Part shown: positions 1,745 to 18,456 of the stretch, in pieces
Numbering within the stretch: the stretch's first letter is position 1
Layout: the number at the start of each line of letters is the position of its first letter
DNA from: a virus
Reading direction: 5' to 3' (one strand)
DNA: 21,396 nucleotides
Virus record (IMG/VR): IMGVR_UViG_3300012931_000080
Location: 1 to 21,396 of that record
Translations under genes and position numbers: made by a program
The notes under the pieces: model-generated
The model's database searches: none
Told to the model about the DNA's origin: nothing
Seen by the model: the letters and a program-made list of their open reading frames with translations, nothing else

Positions 1745-2566
1745 GTGCCGAGCATCGTCCTTCCATCTAGGCGCTTTCTGCCGCCAGCGGTAGAAACCCT
1801 CGACCCAAGCAATCAGTTCTACCCCTACGATGGGGATGTTTATCTTGGCGGGATGGGGCTAATCGGCGCACGCACGCAGACCCTTGCTACAACAGTTGGT
1901 GGAAACTTGTACGCGAGATTCGGAACGGTAGCTGGCAATGCATTTGATGCAAGTGGACAATCTGGCGCCGCCTTCCTTTCAAGTCGAAGCTACACTCCGC
2001 CGCTGAATCAGACGATATTTGCGGTGATTCGACCGACAAGCTGGCCCGCAAGCGGCATCGACAGGGGCAAGATTGTTGGCGGGTGGACGCAGGCGCACCT
2101 TAGCGGCACCGGCGCTCCGCTCGGCGCTAACGCTGGTCTCGTGATCTCGTGCCCTTTCCAGTCGTTCGCCAACTACATTCCGTGCGATGCTTGTCTGACG
2201 TACTCGGATGGCACCAGTGAGATCGTGGACGGTCCCGCTACCACTAACAGTGCAAACGCTACTAAGAATCCTTGGTTCATTTCGATCAGCTACAAGGACG
2301 CGTCGCTGCTGAGCTTCTACAGCCGCGACTTGGTGACTGGCCTCATCCTTTCGAGCAGCGTGTCGAAAACCAAGAGTCTGAAGCAGGCGTCGCAGCCGTT
2401 TTCAATTTTTAGCAGCGACCCGAACAGCGACACCAATAACTCATGGACCGGGGGCCTTGGAACTGCCTACGGTCTCTACGTTGGCTGGGTGGCTCGCGCG
2501 TGGACGCTGACCCAGCTTGCGCAACTCGCCGCGAACCCTTGGCAGATTTTTAGGCCGCAGCTATGA
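1745..2566 (+). CDS. LamG / concanavalin A-like phage protein
   Basis: This 273-residue protein starts at GTG 1745, 12 nt after the previous stop, with GGGGGCGAG just upstream. Evidence for a LamG-like jelly roll: an N-terminal FDASGQSGAAFLSS-type strand, TIFAVIRPTSWP (the typical first core strand), WFISISYKD, and near the end a GLYVGWVARAWTLTQLAQLAANPWQIFRPQL segment. The closing WQIFRP after a short helix with L-x-x-NP is a recurrent ending of phage and bacterial LamG-like domains. Such domains bind glycans or act as fibre tips. The gene overlaps the next by ATGA at 2563-2566. Lower GC and different codon use than neighbouring head genes suggest horizontal exchange. No catalytic site is evident, so a binding rather than hydrolytic role is inferred. 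Confidence 0.65.
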   Translation: MPSIVLPSRRFLPPAVETLDPSNQFYPYDGDVYLGGMGLIGARTQTLATTVGGNLYARFGTVAGNAFDASGQSGAAFLSSRSYTPPLNQTIFAVIRPTSWPASGIDRGKIVGGWTQAHLSGTGAPLGANAGLVISCPFQSFANYIPCDACLTYSDGTSEIVDGPATTNSANATKNPWFISISYKDASLLSFYSRDLVTGLILSSSVSKTKSLKQASQPFSIFSSDPNSDTNNSWTGGLGTAYGLYVGWVARAWTLTQLAQLAANPWQIFRPQL

Positions 2567-3636
2567 GACTGTATTGGCAAGCAGGTGGCGGCGGCGCAGC
2601 CGCCCTTGCATCGTCGGTCTCAGCAAGTTCAACGGCAGCCGGCAGCCTCACTACTGGCATCCCGCTTGGCGGCTCGGTTGCGGCGGTGAGCACGGTGGTT
2701 TCTGCCACGCTGACGACCGCGATCGACATGGCCGCGAGCATCGCAGCGCTCTCCTCTGCGCTCAGCGCGGCTCTCACGACGCAGCTCAAGCTGAGTGCCG
2801 CCATCTCGGCGACGGTTACCACTGGCGCGGCCCTTGCAACAGCGATCAAGCTGCAGACCTCGATCGCCGCCCAAGTGACGGCTACAGGATCGCTTGCCGC
2901 TCCCGGCGCTGCGCTCGCAGCCTCCGTGCAAGCGACAGCGAGCGCCACGGGTGCGCTCACCACTGGCATCCAGCTCGCGGAATCTTCCAGCGCGCAGTCC
3001 ACTGCTTCGGGCGCGCTCACCACCAGCATCAAACTTGCCGCCTCCGCCACCTCGCAGGCGACGGTCACGGGCGCGCTCACCACCGGCATTCAGCTCGCCG
3101 CGGCGGCGGGCGCCCAGGTAACTGCGAGCGGCAGCATCGTTGCCTTCACAGGGCTCAATGCAGCTGCGAGCTGCTCGAGCTCCGCTACTGGCGCGCTCAC
3201 CACCGGCATTCCGCTCGGTGCCTCGGTGGCGTCGGCCGTAGCCGCCACCGGCGCGCTCACCACCGGCATCGCGCTTGCGGCAGCAATTGCCGACCTGAGC
3301 ACGGCGAGCGCCACGCTCACCAGTTCCTCCGCGACCTTCGCCGCAGCAGTTAGCGCGCAGGCCACCGCCACTGGCACGCTCACCACCGGCATCGAGCTTG
3401 CCGCGGCTGCTGCCGGCACGAGCGCCGCAAGCGGCGCGATCGACACGCAGATCCCGCTTGTCGGAGCGCTGGTTGCAAACGTAACGGCAAGCGCTGTCTT
3501 TTGGTCGCGCACGAAAGTGTTCTCGCCCGCGCGCGATTACCTCGTGCCGCTGCAGGCGCGCGACTACCTTGTGCCGCTGCAGGCGCGCGCTTACGCCGTG
3601 CCGGCGCAGAACCGAAGTTTCGTTGTCACGGAATGA
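2563..3636 (+). CDS. Repeat protein with about fourteen 20-residue units
   Basis: This 357-residue protein is made almost wholly of Ala, Ser, Thr, Gly, Val and Leu. From about residue 27 to 310 it repeats a unit of the form G-A-L-T-T-G-I-x-L-A-A with a period of 20-21 residues. Units begin near residues 27, 48, 69, 89, 109, 130, 150, 170, 190, 210, 230, 250, 271 and 291, some of them degenerate. The regular alternation fits a beta-solenoid or a long repetitive rod. The C-terminus switches to 9-residue repeats (ARDYLVPLQ, ARDYLVPLQ, ARAYAVPAQ, then NRSFVVTE), an ending reminiscent of other small phage virion proteins. ATG 2563 overlaps the previous stop. Position between a LamG-like protein and a fibre-tail adaptor suggests a fibre shaft or spacer. 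That role is inferred; I do not recognise a named family. Confidence 0.7.
   Translation: MRLYWQAGGGGAAALASSVSASSTAAGSLTTGIPLGGSVAAVSTVVSATLTTAIDMAASIAALSSALSAALTTQLKLSAAISATVTTGAALATAIKLQTSIAAQVTATGSLAAPGAALAASVQATASATGALTTGIQLAESSSAQSTASGALTTSIKLAASATSQATVTGALTTGIQLAAAAGAQVTASGSIVAFTGLNAAASCSSSATGALTTGIPLGASVASAVAATGALTTGIALAAAIADLSTASATLTSSSATFAAAVSAQATATGTLTTGIELAAAAAGTSAASGAIDTQIPLVGALVANVTASAVFWSRTKVFSPARDYLVPLQARDYLVPLQARAYAVPAQNRSFVVTE
2641..3492 (+). repeat. In-gene tandem array, 60-bp period
   Basis: The DNA behind the 20-residue protein repeats. The core GCGCTCACCACCGGCAT recurs with little change, for example near 2953, 3010, 3070, 3190, 3250 and 3373, mostly 60 bp or multiples of it apart. 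Outer units have diverged. The conserved copies offer homology for slippage or recombination that would keep the frame. Confidence 0.8.
3529..3633 (+). repeat. 27-bp tandem repeats at the 3' end of the repeat gene
   Basis: Units at 3529-3555, 3556-3582 and 3583-3609 encode ARDYLVPLQ, ARDYLVPLQ and ARAYAVPAQ. A degenerate fourth (3610-3633) encodes NRSFVVTE. The first two differ at only two third-codon positions. Confidence 0.85.
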
Positions 3637-3654: not shown

Positions 3655-3951
3655 ATGAGCACGCAGAAACTGAATGCCCAGGGCATGCCCGAGTACGTCA
3701 TGGACCCTGCCGACCTCCTCGATTTCGTGCTGGACTGGACCACCTGGCTTGCAGGCGACACGATTGCGACGAGCGCTTGGACGGTGCCCGCAGGCATCAC
3801 CAAGGACTCGGACGTCAATACGCCGACCACGGCGACGATCTGGCTGAGGAACGCTACGCTCGGCAAGCGCTACATCGTGACCAACCACATCACGACTGCC
3901 GGCGGTCGAGGTAAGGATCAGTCGATCGAGATCCTGTGCCGGAATCAGTGA
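3655..3951 (+). CDS. Phage fibre-tail adaptor protein
   Basis: This 98-residue protein has the pattern of the phage fibre-tail adaptor family: an MDPADLLDFVLDWTTWLAGDTI opening, TSAWTVPAGITKDSD, then a TTATIWLRNATLGKRYIVTNHITTA sandwich and a final strand GKDQSIEILC. The family is a small Ig-like beta sandwich (W-x-x-W-L, SxWTVPxGIT, TxxWLxxGTxGxxYxVTNxITTxxGR) that joins fibres to the tail. AAAGGA at 3642-3647 precedes ATG 3655. It is the last gene of the fibre cassette; a promoter and operator follow at once. Together with the gp80-like gene at the other end, it supports reading the whole 235-3951 block as virion fibre equipment. Confidence 0.8.
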   Translation: MSTQKLNAQGMPEYVMDPADLLDFVLDWTTWLAGDTIATSAWTVPAGITKDSDVNTPTTATIWLRNATLGKRYIVTNHITTAGGRGKDQSIEILCRNQ

Positions 3952-11855: not shown

Positions 11856-14800
11856 ATGGCAGACGTAGGCACCTCCCCAACTTTGACGATGAAGGTCCGG
11901 GCGCCCGAAGCGCTTGCGGGCTTCAAGGCGTTGAGGACGGAGGTCGACGCGCTGAAGGCGAGCCTTGCCGGCTTGCGCACGGGCGGCAGCACTGGCGGCA
12001 GCCGCAACGCCACCCTCACCCGCCTCACCGCCGAAGTCGCAGAGCTGCGCGCCGCGCTGAAGGCGAGCCAGCTCGATGTCGAGCGCCTCTCGATCGCCGT
12101 CCAGCAGAACGCCGCCAAGGAGGTCGAGGCGGTGCGCAAGGTCTCTCGCGCGAAGAAAACCGCCGCCGATGAGGAGACCGCCCTGGTAGAGAAGAACGAG
12201 GCGTACAGGCGCAAGGTCCAGCTCAACTCGGCGATCATGACCGGCCAGGCGATCCTGCGGGCGAACCGGGACGTCGAAGCCTCGATCACCCGGATGATTG
12301 CCGAGCAGGAGCGCGAGCGCGAGCGTATTCGCGCCGCCGCGGCGCGCCAGGCGACAGCCGGCACAGGCGGCGTAGCGGGCTTTCGTCGCAACCTCGTTTA
12401 CAACTCGACCGTCGCCGCCTGGGGCGGTTTCGAGCGCTCGCGCGTGGCGGTCGAAAGCTCGCTCACGACGCTCGTGCGGGAACAAGAGGGCGCGCAGCTC
12501 CGGGCGACTCGGGAAGCGGAGGCGGCGCGCGTTGCCGCCGCGCGGGAGGCCGTCCGGGCGCGAGTCGCGATCGAGCTCTCGCTTACCAGGTTGATCCAAG
12601 AGCAGGAGCGCGAGCGGGCGGTTGCGGCCGCGCGCGCCGCGCGCGCCGCGCGCGCATCCGCCGGCGGCGCAGGCGGGGCCGGCGTCGGGCGTAGCGCCCT
12701 GCGCGGCGCCCTTGCCCCGTCGGGCGGCCTATTCCTCACCTACGGCTCGTCCATCCCGGCGCTTGCCGGCGGCTTTGCCGCCGCTGCGGCGGTACAGCAG
12801 ACGTTCAGCCAGGGCTCGCAGTTCCAGTATCAGATGCAGTTCGTTGGCGCGTTGGGCGGCCTCGCCTCCCAGCAAATCGCCGCGCTGAGCCAGCAGGTGC
12901 TCGAGCTGGGGCGGAACAGCGTCTACGGGCCGGTCGAGCTCGCCAAGGGCATGCGCGTGCTCGCGCAGGCGGGCTTGAGCGCGACGGACGCGATCAAGGT
13001 GCTGCCGATCGCCACCAAGGTTGCGCAGCAAGGCGAGACCGATCTCACGTCGGCGTCGGAAACGCTGATCGGCGTGATGAACGAATTCAAGCTGCAGATC
13101 TCGGATCTCCCGCACATCGGCGATTCGCTTTCGAAGGTCGCGGCGCAAACGCCGACCTCGCTCGGCGAAATGGCTTCGGCCATGAAGCAGGTGACCGGCG
13201 TATCCGAGCGGTTCAACGTGTCGCTTGAAACGTCCGAGGCGCTGGTCGGCCTGCTTGCCCAGCGCAAGATCGTGGGCAGCATGGCCGGTACGGTCACGCG
13301 CCGGTTCCTCGAGGAAGCCTACTCGCCGCGCTCGAACCTTGCGCAGCAGCTCGAGAAGTCGATGGGCCTCAACCCCTTCGACGCCCAGGGCAACCTCAAG
13401 AAGGACACGCAGTACATCCAGGAGGTCATCTCGGCGCTGCGCTCGCTCAACCGCGAGGCTCAGCAGCGCGCGATCAGCATCTTGTTCGATGAGCGTAGCG
13501 CCAAGCTCGCTGCGGCGCTCGTGGGCGATGTGACGGACGAGTTCATGAAGCTGCGCACCGAAGCGCAGAATTCGGACGGCGCGCTGCAGCAGTTCTCGAA
13601 CGACCTGAACACGTCCGTGCTTCAGGTGCTCAAGCAGGCGTGGTCGAACCTGTCGTCGGACATGATCCGAGGGTTCGACAAGATTAAGCCGCAAGTCAGC
13701 GAATTTGCGACCGCCTTGCGCGACGCCTTCAACACCGATGCGGCGAAAGGATTCTTCGCCGTGCTTTCGGAGGGCTTGGGCGCACAGCTTGCTGCGGTCA
13801 CGCAGATCATGAAGCTGCTCCACGGCGCGCCCGCCTTTGGGCACACGCCTGCGATCAACGCCCTGCTGCCCGGCTTCGGGCTTGCCGGTGTTGCGGCCGA
13901 GACGTTCTACGCCCGGTCGCAGGGGCGCGGCCCGCAATACCTGTCGGGTGCGGCGAACGCCGGCGAGCTGGCGCGGCTGGGCGCGCACCAGGGCGACGCA
14001 ATTGCGGCACAGGCCCGAGCCGCGTCGGCGGGTTACGCCGGCCAGGTGGGTGCGCTTACGACCGGCTCCGGCACGCTTGCTGCGAAGTTCATGGACCCGG
14101 ATGCCTATAAGAAGGCTCAGGCCCTCGCCTCCGCGAACGAGCGCGCGGCCACCGCCGCGCAACAGCGCGCCTATCAGCGCATCCAGCAAACCACAGCGTT
14201 CGAGACCCAGCAGGTCGAGGCGCTTCACCGCTACAACCTGATCAGCGAAAGCGAGTATGTCCGCCAGATCGATGCGATCAACGAGCGGCGGCGCCAGGCG
14301 GCAATCGACGAGGCCAACAAGGCTGTTGCGCTGCTGCAGGCCGAGCTGAAGAAGAAGCTCGAGGCTGACAAGAAGGTGTACGTGGAAACTGCGCTCGCCG
14401 ACGCGAAGGCGAAGCGCGACGCGCTCCTGCGCGAGTCGAAGCAGGCTCAGGACCTAGTGCGCTACCGGCAGCAGGGGGAGCTCAAGACGCTTGAGGATGC
14501 AGGTGCGAAAAGCCTGCGCAAGCACGCCGAGGATGGGGTGCTTCGCCGTCAGCAGATCCAGCAGCAGCACGACGCAGCGCTGCAAGGCCAAGTGGATGCC
14601 GCGGTCGCTGCGGAAGCCTTGCGCACGCGCAAGAGCTTCGAGCAGGACCTTCTGCAGATCGAGCAGCAGCTTTACGCCCGTCGCGCCGACGAAGCCAAGC
14701 GCGCGGACCCCGAGAACGAGAAGGCGATTGCGGTTTTGCTCGCGCGCAAGAAAGCGACCGAAGCGCAGCGTGATGCGGAAGCGAAACGCAACGCTGATGC

Positions 14801-15473: not shown

Positions 15474-15809
15474 ATGGCTATTTTCACCTGGGTGCCTTCC
15501 TACGGAACGCAAGTGAGCAAGAAGCCTCGCATGCTCGCCGCGCAGTTCGGCGACGGGTACGCGCAGCGCGCGCAGAACGGCATCAACTCCAATCCGCAGA
15601 GCTGGTCGCTCGTGTTCAGCTCTATTGCTCCTGCGGATGCGGACGCGATCGACACCTTCCTTGCGACGCAGGCCGGTGTCACGCCTTTTGACTGGACGAC
15701 GCCCAAGGGCGACGCGTTGCGCTTCACATGCGCGGAGTGGAGTCGCACCTACGACGCCTACGCTGGGCACACGATCACGGCGACCTTTGAGCAGGACTTC
15801 GCACCGTGA
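15474..15809 (+). CDS. M: Minor tail protein M
   Basis: This 111-residue protein matches lambda gpM (109 residues) in length, place and pattern: FTWVPSYGTQVSKKPRMLAAQFGDGYAQRAQNGIN at the start, where 'K-P-R-x-x-x-x-x-FGDGYxQR-x-x-x-G-(I/L)N' is the family signature, then SWSLVFSSIAPADADAIDTFL, FDWTTPKGDALRFTCAEWSRTY and a final strand TITATFEQDF. It is a component of the tail tip, where it joins the tip complex to the tube. ATG 15474 comes 3 nt after the tape measure stop; the next gene overlaps by GTGA. Confidence 0.93.
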   Translation: MAIFTWVPSYGTQVSKKPRMLAAQFGDGYAQRAQNGINSNPQSWSLVFSSIAPADADAIDTFLATQAGVTPFDWTTPKGDALRFTCAEWSRTYDAYAGHTITATFEQDFAP

Positions 15810-17767
15810 CGATCAAGCAAGACATCCAGAAGCTCGAGCCGGGTGCGCTTCTCGAGCTGTTCGACATTGACGCAACCGCGCTCGGCGGCACGATCAACCG
15901 TTTCCATGCCGGCACGAACAGCTTGCGCACGGCCGTGGTGTGGCAGGGCAACACCTACAACCCCTGGCCGATTGACGCGACCGGCTTCGATATTAGCGGT
16001 AAGGGTCAGCTTCCGACGCCGCACCTCAAGGTGGCGAACATTGGCGGCCTGGTGACCGCGCTTGCGCTCGCCTATGACGATTTGATTGGCGCCAAGGTGA
16101 CGCGTCGGCGCACGTTTGCGAAGTACCTGGACGCAGCGAATTTCATCGAACAGCCGGCGCTAGACATCAAATTCACTGCGGGCTCGGCGGTGCCGATAGC
16201 GGGGGAGCCTTCGCTGCCGCTCACGTGCACGCGTACCGGCACGGCTACGCGGGTGAACGCCCAAGGGCTACTCGAGACCGTAGCCGCGAACACGCTGCGC
16301 CTGAACTACAACCCCGTGACACTTGCATGCAGGGGGCTGCTTAGCGAAGAAACCCGGACGAACCTCGCACTCCAATCGGCGGACATTTCTAGCGCGGCTT
16401 GGGGCAATGAGAACGTAACGGTTGTCGGGAACCAGCTTGCGGCCCCTGACGGTGCCGTAGCGATGGGTTCGCTTACGGAGAACGTGGCGCTCGGGTACCA
16501 CAGGATTTGGCTAGGCTCTAATCAACCGCGCAACGCTAATTACGCATGGAGCGTTTTCATAAAGCGTAAGGCCGGTACGCACGGCATTGGACTTCAGCTC
16601 ACGACCGGTGGCGCGAATAACCTTTGGCAGAACTTCAACATCGACACCGGCACGGCCCAGGGCGCGCCGATTGTGAGCGGTGATGCGGTATTTGCCGAAG
16701 CCGGAATTGAAGATTGGGGCAACGGCATCTACAGGGTATGGATTGCTGGCAAGCCGAGCGCAACGGACTCTGCCAACGGCGTGAGCGGGTACGTCTACAT
16801 GATGGACGGCACCTGGTCCAACAGCTTCACCGGCGACGGCACGAGTGCCGTGTATGCGTGGGGCGGCCAGCTCGAAGCCGGAGCCTTCCCCACCTCCTAC
16901 ATCCCTACCGGCGTAGCCGCCGTGACGCGCGGCGTAGAGACCGTGATGGCGAACAATATCTCGAGCTTCTACCTGGCGGCTGGAGGCACGCTTTACACGG
17001 AGATCGAAGCCAATCACCCGGCAGCCGGCCAAATCGAGTGTGCCGCAGGCTTTACCAATACGGGCTCAGTAGCGTCGCGCATCAACCACCTCGTCAACGC
17101 CGCACCGAACGACGAGTTTTCGGTAGTCGATACCAACACTTTTCAGGCAAACCTTGGAGGCGGCGTAACGATTACGAAGGGCATGATCGTTCGCCAAGCT
17201 TCAGCGTTTGTTGCCAATGATTTTGCAACTTCGACGAACGCGGGCGCGGTTGCGACCGACACCGCCGGCACAATTCCGACAGTGACGCGCCTCGGGCTCG
17301 GCTGTTTGGCCCCTGAGTCGCCCTGGCCGCTCAACGGACACCTGCGCCGAGTCACTTACTACCCGACGCGGCACAGCAACGCCGACTTGCAGACGTTCTC
17401 CACGAGCGGCCCGATCGCTTATACCGGCGTAGCAGATCCGACTGCCGAGTTTCCGCTCGACATCTTCTACGTCGAGCGCAAGGTCTCGGAGAACCGCGCA
17501 ATCGTTGAATTCGAGCTTGCCGCGGCGAGCGACGTGGAAGGCGTTTTGCTGCCGCGGCGCCAGGTCATAGCGAACGTCTGCTCGTGGACCTATCGAAGCT
17601 CTGAATGCAGCTACGCGGGCGGCGCGGTGGCGCAGGCTGACGATACACCGACGACGAACATTAACCTCGACGTGTGCGGCAAGCGCGTGTCCTCGTGCAA
17701 GCTGCGCTTTGGCGCACTCGCTGAGCTGCCTTACGGCGGCTTTCCCGGATCTCGGGTGACTGCATGA
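15806..17767 (+). CDS. L: Minor tail protein L with a large inserted spike/carbohydrate-binding module
   Basis: This 653-residue protein is nearly three times the usual length of gpL (lambda, 232). Residues 1-113 are the normal N-terminal domain (IQKLEPGALLELFDIDATALGG, GKGQLPTPHLKVANIGG, RRRTFAKYLDAANF). Residues 542-653 are the normal C-terminal domain (VADPTAEFPLDIFYVERK, VEGVLLPRRQVIANVCSW), with Cys592, Cys601, Cys624 and Cys631, the four cysteines that hold the iron-sulfur cluster in lambda gpL. Between them, residues 114-541 resemble phage head-spike/fibre carbohydrate-binding proteins: LTCTRTGTATRVNAQGLL, RGLLSEETRTNLALQS, QLEAGAFPTSYIPTG, VTRGVETV, then a LamG-like half ending LNGHLRRVTYYPTRHSNADL. 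GTG 15806 overlaps the M stop. The insert likely projects from the tail tip. Confidence 0.9.
   Translation: MTIKQDIQKLEPGALLELFDIDATALGGTINRFHAGTNSLRTAVVWQGNTYNPWPIDATGFDISGKGQLPTPHLKVANIGGLVTALALAYDDLIGAKVTRRRTFAKYLDAANFIEQPALDIKFTAGSAVPIAGEPSLPLTCTRTGTATRVNAQGLLETVAANTLRLNYNPVTLACRGLLSEETRTNLALQSADISSAAWGNENVTVVGNQLAAPDGAVAMGSLTENVALGYHRIWLGSNQPRNANYAWSVFIKRKAGTHGIGLQLTTGGANNLWQNFNIDTGTAQGAPIVSGDAVFAEAGIEDWGNGIYRVWIAGKPSATDSANGVSGYVYMMDGTWSNSFTGDGTSAVYAWGGQLEAGAFPTSYIPTGVAAVTRGVETVMANNISSFYLAAGGTLYTEIEANHPAAGQIECAAGFTNTGSVASRINHLVNAAPNDEFSVVDTNTFQANLGGGVTITKGMIVRQASAFVANDFATSTNAGAVATDTAGTIPTVTRLGLGCLAPESPWPLNGHLRRVTYYPTRHSNADLQTFSTSGPIAYTGVADPTAEFPLDIFYVERKVSENRAIVEFELAAASDVEGVLLPRRQVIANVCSWTYRSSECSYAGGAVAQADDTPTTNINLDVCGKRVSSCKLRFGALAELPYGGFPGSRVTA
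16145..17428 (+). other. Inserted spike-like domain within the L gene
   Basis: Region coding for residues 114-541 of the L homologue. Removing it in frame would restore an ordinary gpL reading from KYLDAANF to VADPTAEFP. It has two halves: a jelly-roll-like part (about 120-380) and a LamG-like part (about 385-530). Confidence 0.8.
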
Positions 17768-18456
17768 CCCCCGAAGCGCTCGAAGCGTTCAAGGCGCATG
17801 CGCGCGCCGAGTACCCGCGCGAAGCGTGCGGCTTGCTCGTCAACTCGCGTTACGTTTCCTGCCGCAACCTGGCTGAGACGCCGGCCGAGCATTTTGTGCT
17901 ATCGCCGCACGACTACCTGGCCGCGTCGCAGCAGGGCAAAGTTGAGGCGGTCTGCCATACGCATCCGAACGCGAGCGCGGAGCCGAGCGAAGCTGACCGC
18001 GCCGCTTGTGAGGCGTCGCAGCTGCCCTGGTACATCCTCTCCTGGCCTACCGAAGTGCTGCGCTCTATCGCGCCGTGCGGTCATGTCACGCCGCTTCTCG
18101 GGCGCGCGTTCGTGCACGGCATTCACGACTGTTATGGGCTCGTGCGTGACTACTACAAGCAGACCCTGGGTATCGAGATCCCGGATTACGAGCGCCGCGA
18201 TCAGTGGTGGGAGCGCGGTGAAAACCTCTACATGGAGTTTTTTGCCGAAGCGGGCTTCGTTTCTGTGCCTGACCTGCAGCCGCACGATGTGATTCTCATG
18301 CAGGTGCGTTCGCCCGTGGCAAATCACGCCGCGGTCTATCTCGGCAACAACATCATGATCCATCACCTTTGGGGTCGCCTTTCCAAGCGCGATGTGTACG
18401 GCGGCTATTGGGCCAAGCACACGCGTCTGATTGTTCGGCATCGGAGTCGCCTGTGA
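17764..18456 (+). CDS. K: Tail tip protein K: JAMM plus NlpC/P60 peptidase
   Basis: This 230-residue, two-domain protein matches lambda gpK. The N-terminal Mov34/JAB metallopeptidase domain (about 1-110) shows Glu20 in YPREACGLL and the zinc motif HTHPNASAEPSEAD with His65, His67, Ser75 and Asp78. The C-terminal NlpC/P60 domain (about 114-230) has the nucleophile Cys123 in HDCYGLVRDYY and catalytic His188 in NHAAVYLG, followed by IMIHHLWGR. The NlpC domain probably cuts peptidoglycan cross-bridges during entry, and the JAMM domain may process tail-tip proteins. All key residues are present, so both domains should be active. ATG 17764 overlaps the L stop (ATGA). Confidence 0.94.
   Translation: MTPEALEAFKAHARAEYPREACGLLVNSRYVSCRNLAETPAEHFVLSPHDYLAASQQGKVEAVCHTHPNASAEPSEADRAACEASQLPWYILSWPTEVLRSIAPCGHVTPLLGRAFVHGIHDCYGLVRDYYKQTLGIEIPDYERRDQWWERGENLYMEFFAEAGFVSVPDLQPHDVILMQVRSPVANHAAVYLGNNIMIHHLWGRLSKRDVYGGYWAKHTRLIVRHRSRL

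Follow-up and report, generated by a model that had tools for sequence, protein, structure and literature searches.

A two-domain lectin-type module within the HDI loop of tail-tip protein gpL: a candidate host-surface-binding cassette

The window analysed here is the whole 21,396-nucleotide stretch of the IMG/VR virus record IMGVR_UViG_3300012931_000080, and it carries a tail-tip block in the lambda-type order of tape measure, M, L, K, I and J. The gpL ORF (15806-17767, + strand) is a single open frame with a GTG start that specifies 653 aa. Upstream lies gene M (15474..15809, +), encoding a distal tail protein (Dit-like; PF05939, 8.6e-29) that is a plain 111-residue protein, whilst downstream are gene K (17764..18456, +), with JAB and NlpC/P60 domains (PF14464 and PF00877), a tail assembly protein gene (phrog_32) and J. 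With PF05939 before it and the K, I and J genes after it, the ORF thus occupies the position of gpL. A megablast search with the window returned no match to any named phage, and the best match of its capsid protein (35%) was to Vibrio phages. Upstream of the S49 peptidase and capsid genes we also observed genes matching the fibre protein gp80 (235-684; 8.9e-46) and the fibre-tail adaptor gp77 (3655-3951; 2.5e-22) of podophage GP4, which suggest a second fibre set; between these fibre-type genes, positions 2563-3636 encode a 357-residue low-complexity Ala/Ser/Thr repeat protein (ATGALTTGI-type).

The ORF matches the gpL model TIGR01600 above its cut-off (259.5 versus 70.75 bits), and does so in two stretches: TIGR01600 and PF05100 cover residues 6-115 and then, after a gap of ~426 residues, the C-terminal end past the insert. 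Residues 1-113 (15806..16144, +), aligned to TIGR01600 positions 1-109 and to lambda gpL (8iyk_L), make up the first, tail-tube-like part of the HDI domain. Residues 542-653 plus the stop codon (17429..17767, +) fall in the second TIGR01600 stretch and contain the last HDI strands, as assigned by DSSP of the model, together with the Fe-S domain. In the four-cysteine region (17579..17698, +), Cys592, 601, 624 and 631 are invariant columns of the gpL alignment, in keeping with a predicted Fe-S cluster; in lambda gpL the cysteines are Cys173/182/205/212 and the cluster lies on the outer surface (PMC10721106). With all four cysteines present, the two flanks rebuild an ordinary gpL, as had been predicted originally from the sequence.

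Residues 114-541 (16145..17428, +) form the insert, a two-domain module of spike-fibre type matched by NF048003, phrog_5939 and 6tb9_F3, and the finding of these families between the two pieces of a gpL match confirms that gpL does carry an insertion. The nearest un-inserted gpLs align to residues 1-113 and 543-649, with 3-8 residues bridging both pieces, which places the proposed junctions at 113/114 and 541/542 no more than a few residues from the true ones. Close gpL relatives lack the insert. The original prediction had a single sequence to go on, and among the annotated phage records in the collection searched none covers 80% of the window gpL, as might be expected had a sequencing or assembly artefact joined a gpL gene to a spike gene. 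This reading is refuted by two further contigs with the same architecture. One (L001) has an identical gpL gene, with SNPs elsewhere (5 in total versus the window beyond position 12,731). The other (G418), a 682-kb bacterial contig containing a prophage, aligns over residues 1-650 and has relatives of M, K, I and J in the same stretch as gpL; its identity to the window protein is 55% and 62.5% in the flanks and 34% in the insert. As such, the insert is not an assembly chimera.

The expectation that the insert would be domain-sized and of the head-spike or fibre type was borne out by profile searches. NF048003 was matched by the insert alone (2e-36) and, in the full protein, by residues 179-376 (124.9 bits, cut-off 36); phrog_5939 was matched by the insert alone (3e-58), and the solved-structure entry of Rcc01080, the head spike fibre of RcGTA (6tb9_F3), was matched within the full protein (8e-23). 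The likeness is one of domain only, and the window protein is not a capsid head-spike protein, as its module sits inside a tail-tip hub. A predicted structure lacking an independent domain would have spoken against a separate module; AlphaFold instead returned two confident beta-domains, with pLDDT near 80-97 for the greater part of residues 184-362 and 425-535. The first (residues about 179-368; 16355..16891, ~184-362, +) is a beta-sandwich of the NF048003 type with pLDDT mostly 82-97, whose best structural matches are baseplate chains of the Pseudomonas phages Pa193 and E217 (Z 20.5, for 9b45_1, and 18.4), and which also resembles CBM4-2 (2y64_A; Z 12.4). The second (residues ~387-535; 16964..17410, +) is concanavalin/LamG-like, matching the sialic-acid-binding CBM40 6er3_B (Z 17.4, rmsd 2.5) as well as pentraxin and LamG folds. 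As the CBM40 match spans model residues 116..534 with only 159 aligned, a strand ahead of domain 1 appears to belong to domain 2; in the model, the second domain is probably completed by the strand at 115-122, and domain 1 is apparently nested within it. A BFVD structure search likewise returned concanavalin-like phage proteins. The likeness to CBM4 and CBM40 is one of shared fold only: a Pfam scan of the window protein matched no CBM family, and in scans of ten inserts no family rose above its own cut-off. Free-standing versions of the module terminate many kinds of phage ORFs, and in our collected set 89 of 104 module-bearing ORFs end no more than 20 residues past it, a C-terminal position expected for a spike or fibre tip.

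In lambda gpL the HDI domain comprises residues 1-166 and the Fe-S domain begins at ~154 (PMC10721106). In the model, HDI strands stand on both sides of the insert, at 97-104 before it and at 552-562 and 566-573 after it. VIA-align superimposes lambda gpL residues 1-162 (8iyk_L) on model residues 1..585, skirting the insert, with Z 16.1 (151 aligned, rmsd 3.6). These comparisons place the insertion in a loop of the N-terminal HDI domain and not, as first proposed, between the two domains of gpL. The related proposal that gpL tolerates a domain-sized insertion stands as to the insert, fails as to its location, and was incomplete, given a second internal site and a C-terminal one among other gpLs.

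To gauge how often such insertions occur, we surveyed 258 distinct gpL ORFs, drawn from both viral contigs and bacterial genomes, for insertions at least 40 residues long. Twenty-three ORFs had one at the HDI loop (HMM positions 110-124) and seven at positions 180-203, the loop between the cysteine pairs, with none at any other position. This set is rich in inserts because several of the scans had insert-bearing queries. In samples without query bias, HDI-loop inserts were present in 2 of 26 gpLs from a phylum-wide draw of 398 genomes and in 5 of the 15 genomes with a gpL that belong to the same family as genome G275. No split gpL match was seen in a spread of 60 of the 1518 named phage records, and a profile search of genome contigs with the gpL alignment gave one locus, which had no insert. 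Most gpLs thus lack the middle region, which is not a universal part of the family, and the suggested search for longer homologues did uncover further insert-bearing gpLs. NF048003-type inserts occupy the HDI loop in L030, L107, L110, L357 and G418, and the repeated occupation of this loop makes it a hotspot, of which the window gpL is one instance.

Several other variants were noted at the HDI loop. A 680-residue gpL (L173:1090-3129) has a 432-residue insert with no family above cut-off; the insert starts with a Cys-rich part, as is also seen in the short inserts of its tree neighbours L112-L185. Among the latter, L112-L114, L161, L172, L177, L179 and L185 form a clade with short Cys-rich inserts of 50-92 residues, possibly small disulfide-bonded repeats. 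In L046, L053, L057 and relatives the loop contains 22-27 residues of the pattern LLxEDxxxLLLEDGG, which may represent an occupied site at an early stage or after reduction. Between Cys2 and Cys3, 104-232 residues are inserted in L007-L012, L072 and L144 (viral contigs) and in L104 (from G117), often bordered by Ala-rich stretches; this site is in the same domain as the oligosaccharide-binding insertion of the RcGTA and R4C hubs. Another gpL group is extended at the C-terminus by about 230-245 residues; in L082, L087-L091 and L093-L097 the extension is rich in T/S/G and the usual LPFGSFPG-type ending is shifted to the new C-terminus. The gpL C-terminal region has been described as hypervariable in the LSH1 paper (PMC13243795). 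In the marine virus AG-345-A17 (MH327491.1, 3060-3992) the gpL match is ~150 residues longer than expected, possibly owing to another internal insert.

Comparison of closely related scaffolds reveals that the content of the HDI loop changes on its own. Among the gpLs L189 (which shares its gpL with the G275 prophage), L110 and L109, protein identity is 98-99% in the left flank and 96-100% in the right, with 99% and 100% for L110 versus L109. Their inserts, on the other hand, show no similarity clearly above shuffled sequences for L110 versus L109 (Z 2.1) or L189 versus L109 (Z -0.1), and 38% identity for L189 versus L110, whilst L190-L193 have no insert and a GNPTADP linker instead. The L109 insert was modelled with low confidence (pLDDT mostly 25-72), and its CBM matches, at a background level of Z 7-8, give a hint of such a fold at most. 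We used a 56-row gpL/module alignment in which the modules are correctly placed, and set aside a mixed 110-sequence alignment in which modules were misregistered against gpL flanks. On the flank tree, the insert state requires nine changes, at least six of them imposed by well-supported branches. The window gpL and G418 were not sisters in a quick tree, whereas a tree uniting them scored higher by 19 log units (p-AU 0.69); this is compatible with a single acquisition of the two-domain module, and independence is not claimed for this pair. Exchange of modules among near-identical gpLs is, like the anatomy of the insert, the site and its recurrence, demonstrated. We lean, by a little, towards the broader view that the HDI loop is a general cassette slot: in Gram-negative bacteria, lambda-type siphophages and prophages would use it to exchange unrelated lectin-type modules between near-identical hubs by recombination.

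With regard to function, we consider it probable that residues 114-541 are a host-surface-binding cassette of two lectin-type beta-sandwich domains, recombined into the HDI loop. The predicted folds hint at, but do not in themselves establish, binding of a receptor or glycan by the insert. In lambda there are three gpL per tail tip, with the HDI domain in the last ring (PMC10721106), and recombination would have put a module of the head-spike-fibre family into a loop of this ring domain, such that each tip would bear three of them, exposed on the outer face of the hub ring; their outward placement is proposed from their size and by analogy with the trimeric lambda ring. The modules may then bind capsule, LPS or exopolysaccharide weakly, which would keep the tail tip at the surface whilst J finds its receptor. 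A gpL of this kind could be viewed as an 'evolved' hub, the counterpart of the evolved Dit of Gram-positive siphophages. In favour of surface binding are the matches of the insert to NF048003 and Rcc01080, as a tagged RcGTA head spike fibre bound capsulated cells better (PMC10218006), and likewise the CBM4-2 and CBM40 folds, the C-terminal position of the free-standing relatives, the hotspot, the exchange of modules and the precedent of evolved Dit (PMC10688798).

Counting against this is the fact that, among solved structures, domain 1 is matched best by a baseplate chain, which could point to a structural role: the beta-sandwiches would be docking points for side fibres or for other proteins of the tail, with no host binding. 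The chain matched in Pa193 and E217 is ~500 residues long, and from its length we take that of E217 to be gp45, the 504-residue triplex protein that anchors the tail fibre (PMC10329688). Near-identical gpLs bearing unrelated modules or none suggest, however, that there is no fixed assembly contact, and the same module family terminates free-standing ORFs; we thus regard a docking role as unlikely. Rather less probable still is that the insert is a functionless passenger, a recent recombination product tolerated in one lineage. It is true that gpL functions without an insert in most phages, and that the second insert domain has a lower GC3 (0.54) than the gpL flanks (0.74-0.81). Nevertheless, the frame has been kept open in both of the near-identical contigs as well as in a distant relative with only 34% insert identity, the domains are intact and confidently folded in the AlphaFold model, and the same site was used repeatedly among the 258 ORFs.

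The lambda tail tip counts gpL among its conserved components. Binding modules carried on the hub would add an element of host recognition beside J and the side fibres, and would account for part of the adsorption to capsulated hosts. A cassette slot, if real, would alter surface recognition by the tail tip independently of J and side fibres. More broadly, the HDI loop is a place that evolution repeatedly uses for domain-sized insertions, and prophages with near-identical scaffolds and differing modules make module function testable by comparison.

Relative to known systems, the window gpL shares with lambda gpL (TIGR01600/PF05100; 8iyk_L) the HDI fold, the four-cysteine Fe-S domain and a gene placed between M and K, but the lambda protein has 232 residues in 8iyk and an HDI loop without a module, compared with 653 residues here. 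The family of RcGTA Rcc01080 and NF048003 matches the insert in sequence and likewise consists of beta-rich, sugar-binding-like modules; Rcc01080, however, is a separate protein whose N-terminus anchors on the capsid, whereas the window module is internal to a tail hub. The RcGTA hub Rcc01696 and the roseophage R4C hub are gpL-type proteins that also have an inserted domain of glycan-binding type, although theirs is an ~82-residue domain within the Fe-S (ion-binding) domain, the second internal site of our survey, rather than in the HDI loop (PMC7296036, PMC10276861). Glycan-type insertions previously known in gpL-like hubs are confined to that Fe-S-domain site, and the HDI-loop site, judged from the alignments, appears new; we found no report of it, or of module exchange there, in the literature searched, and earlier notice is possible. 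Finally, the evolved Dit of lactococcal skunaviruses is, like the window gpL, a tail-tip ring protein with optional carbohydrate-binding inserts, and these restore adsorption to EPS-bearing lactococci (PMC10688798). The carrier there is Dit and not the hub, and the hosts are Gram-positive, such that the window protein, a gpL, is not itself an evolved Dit; the likeness is drawn from architecture, and the two may work alike.
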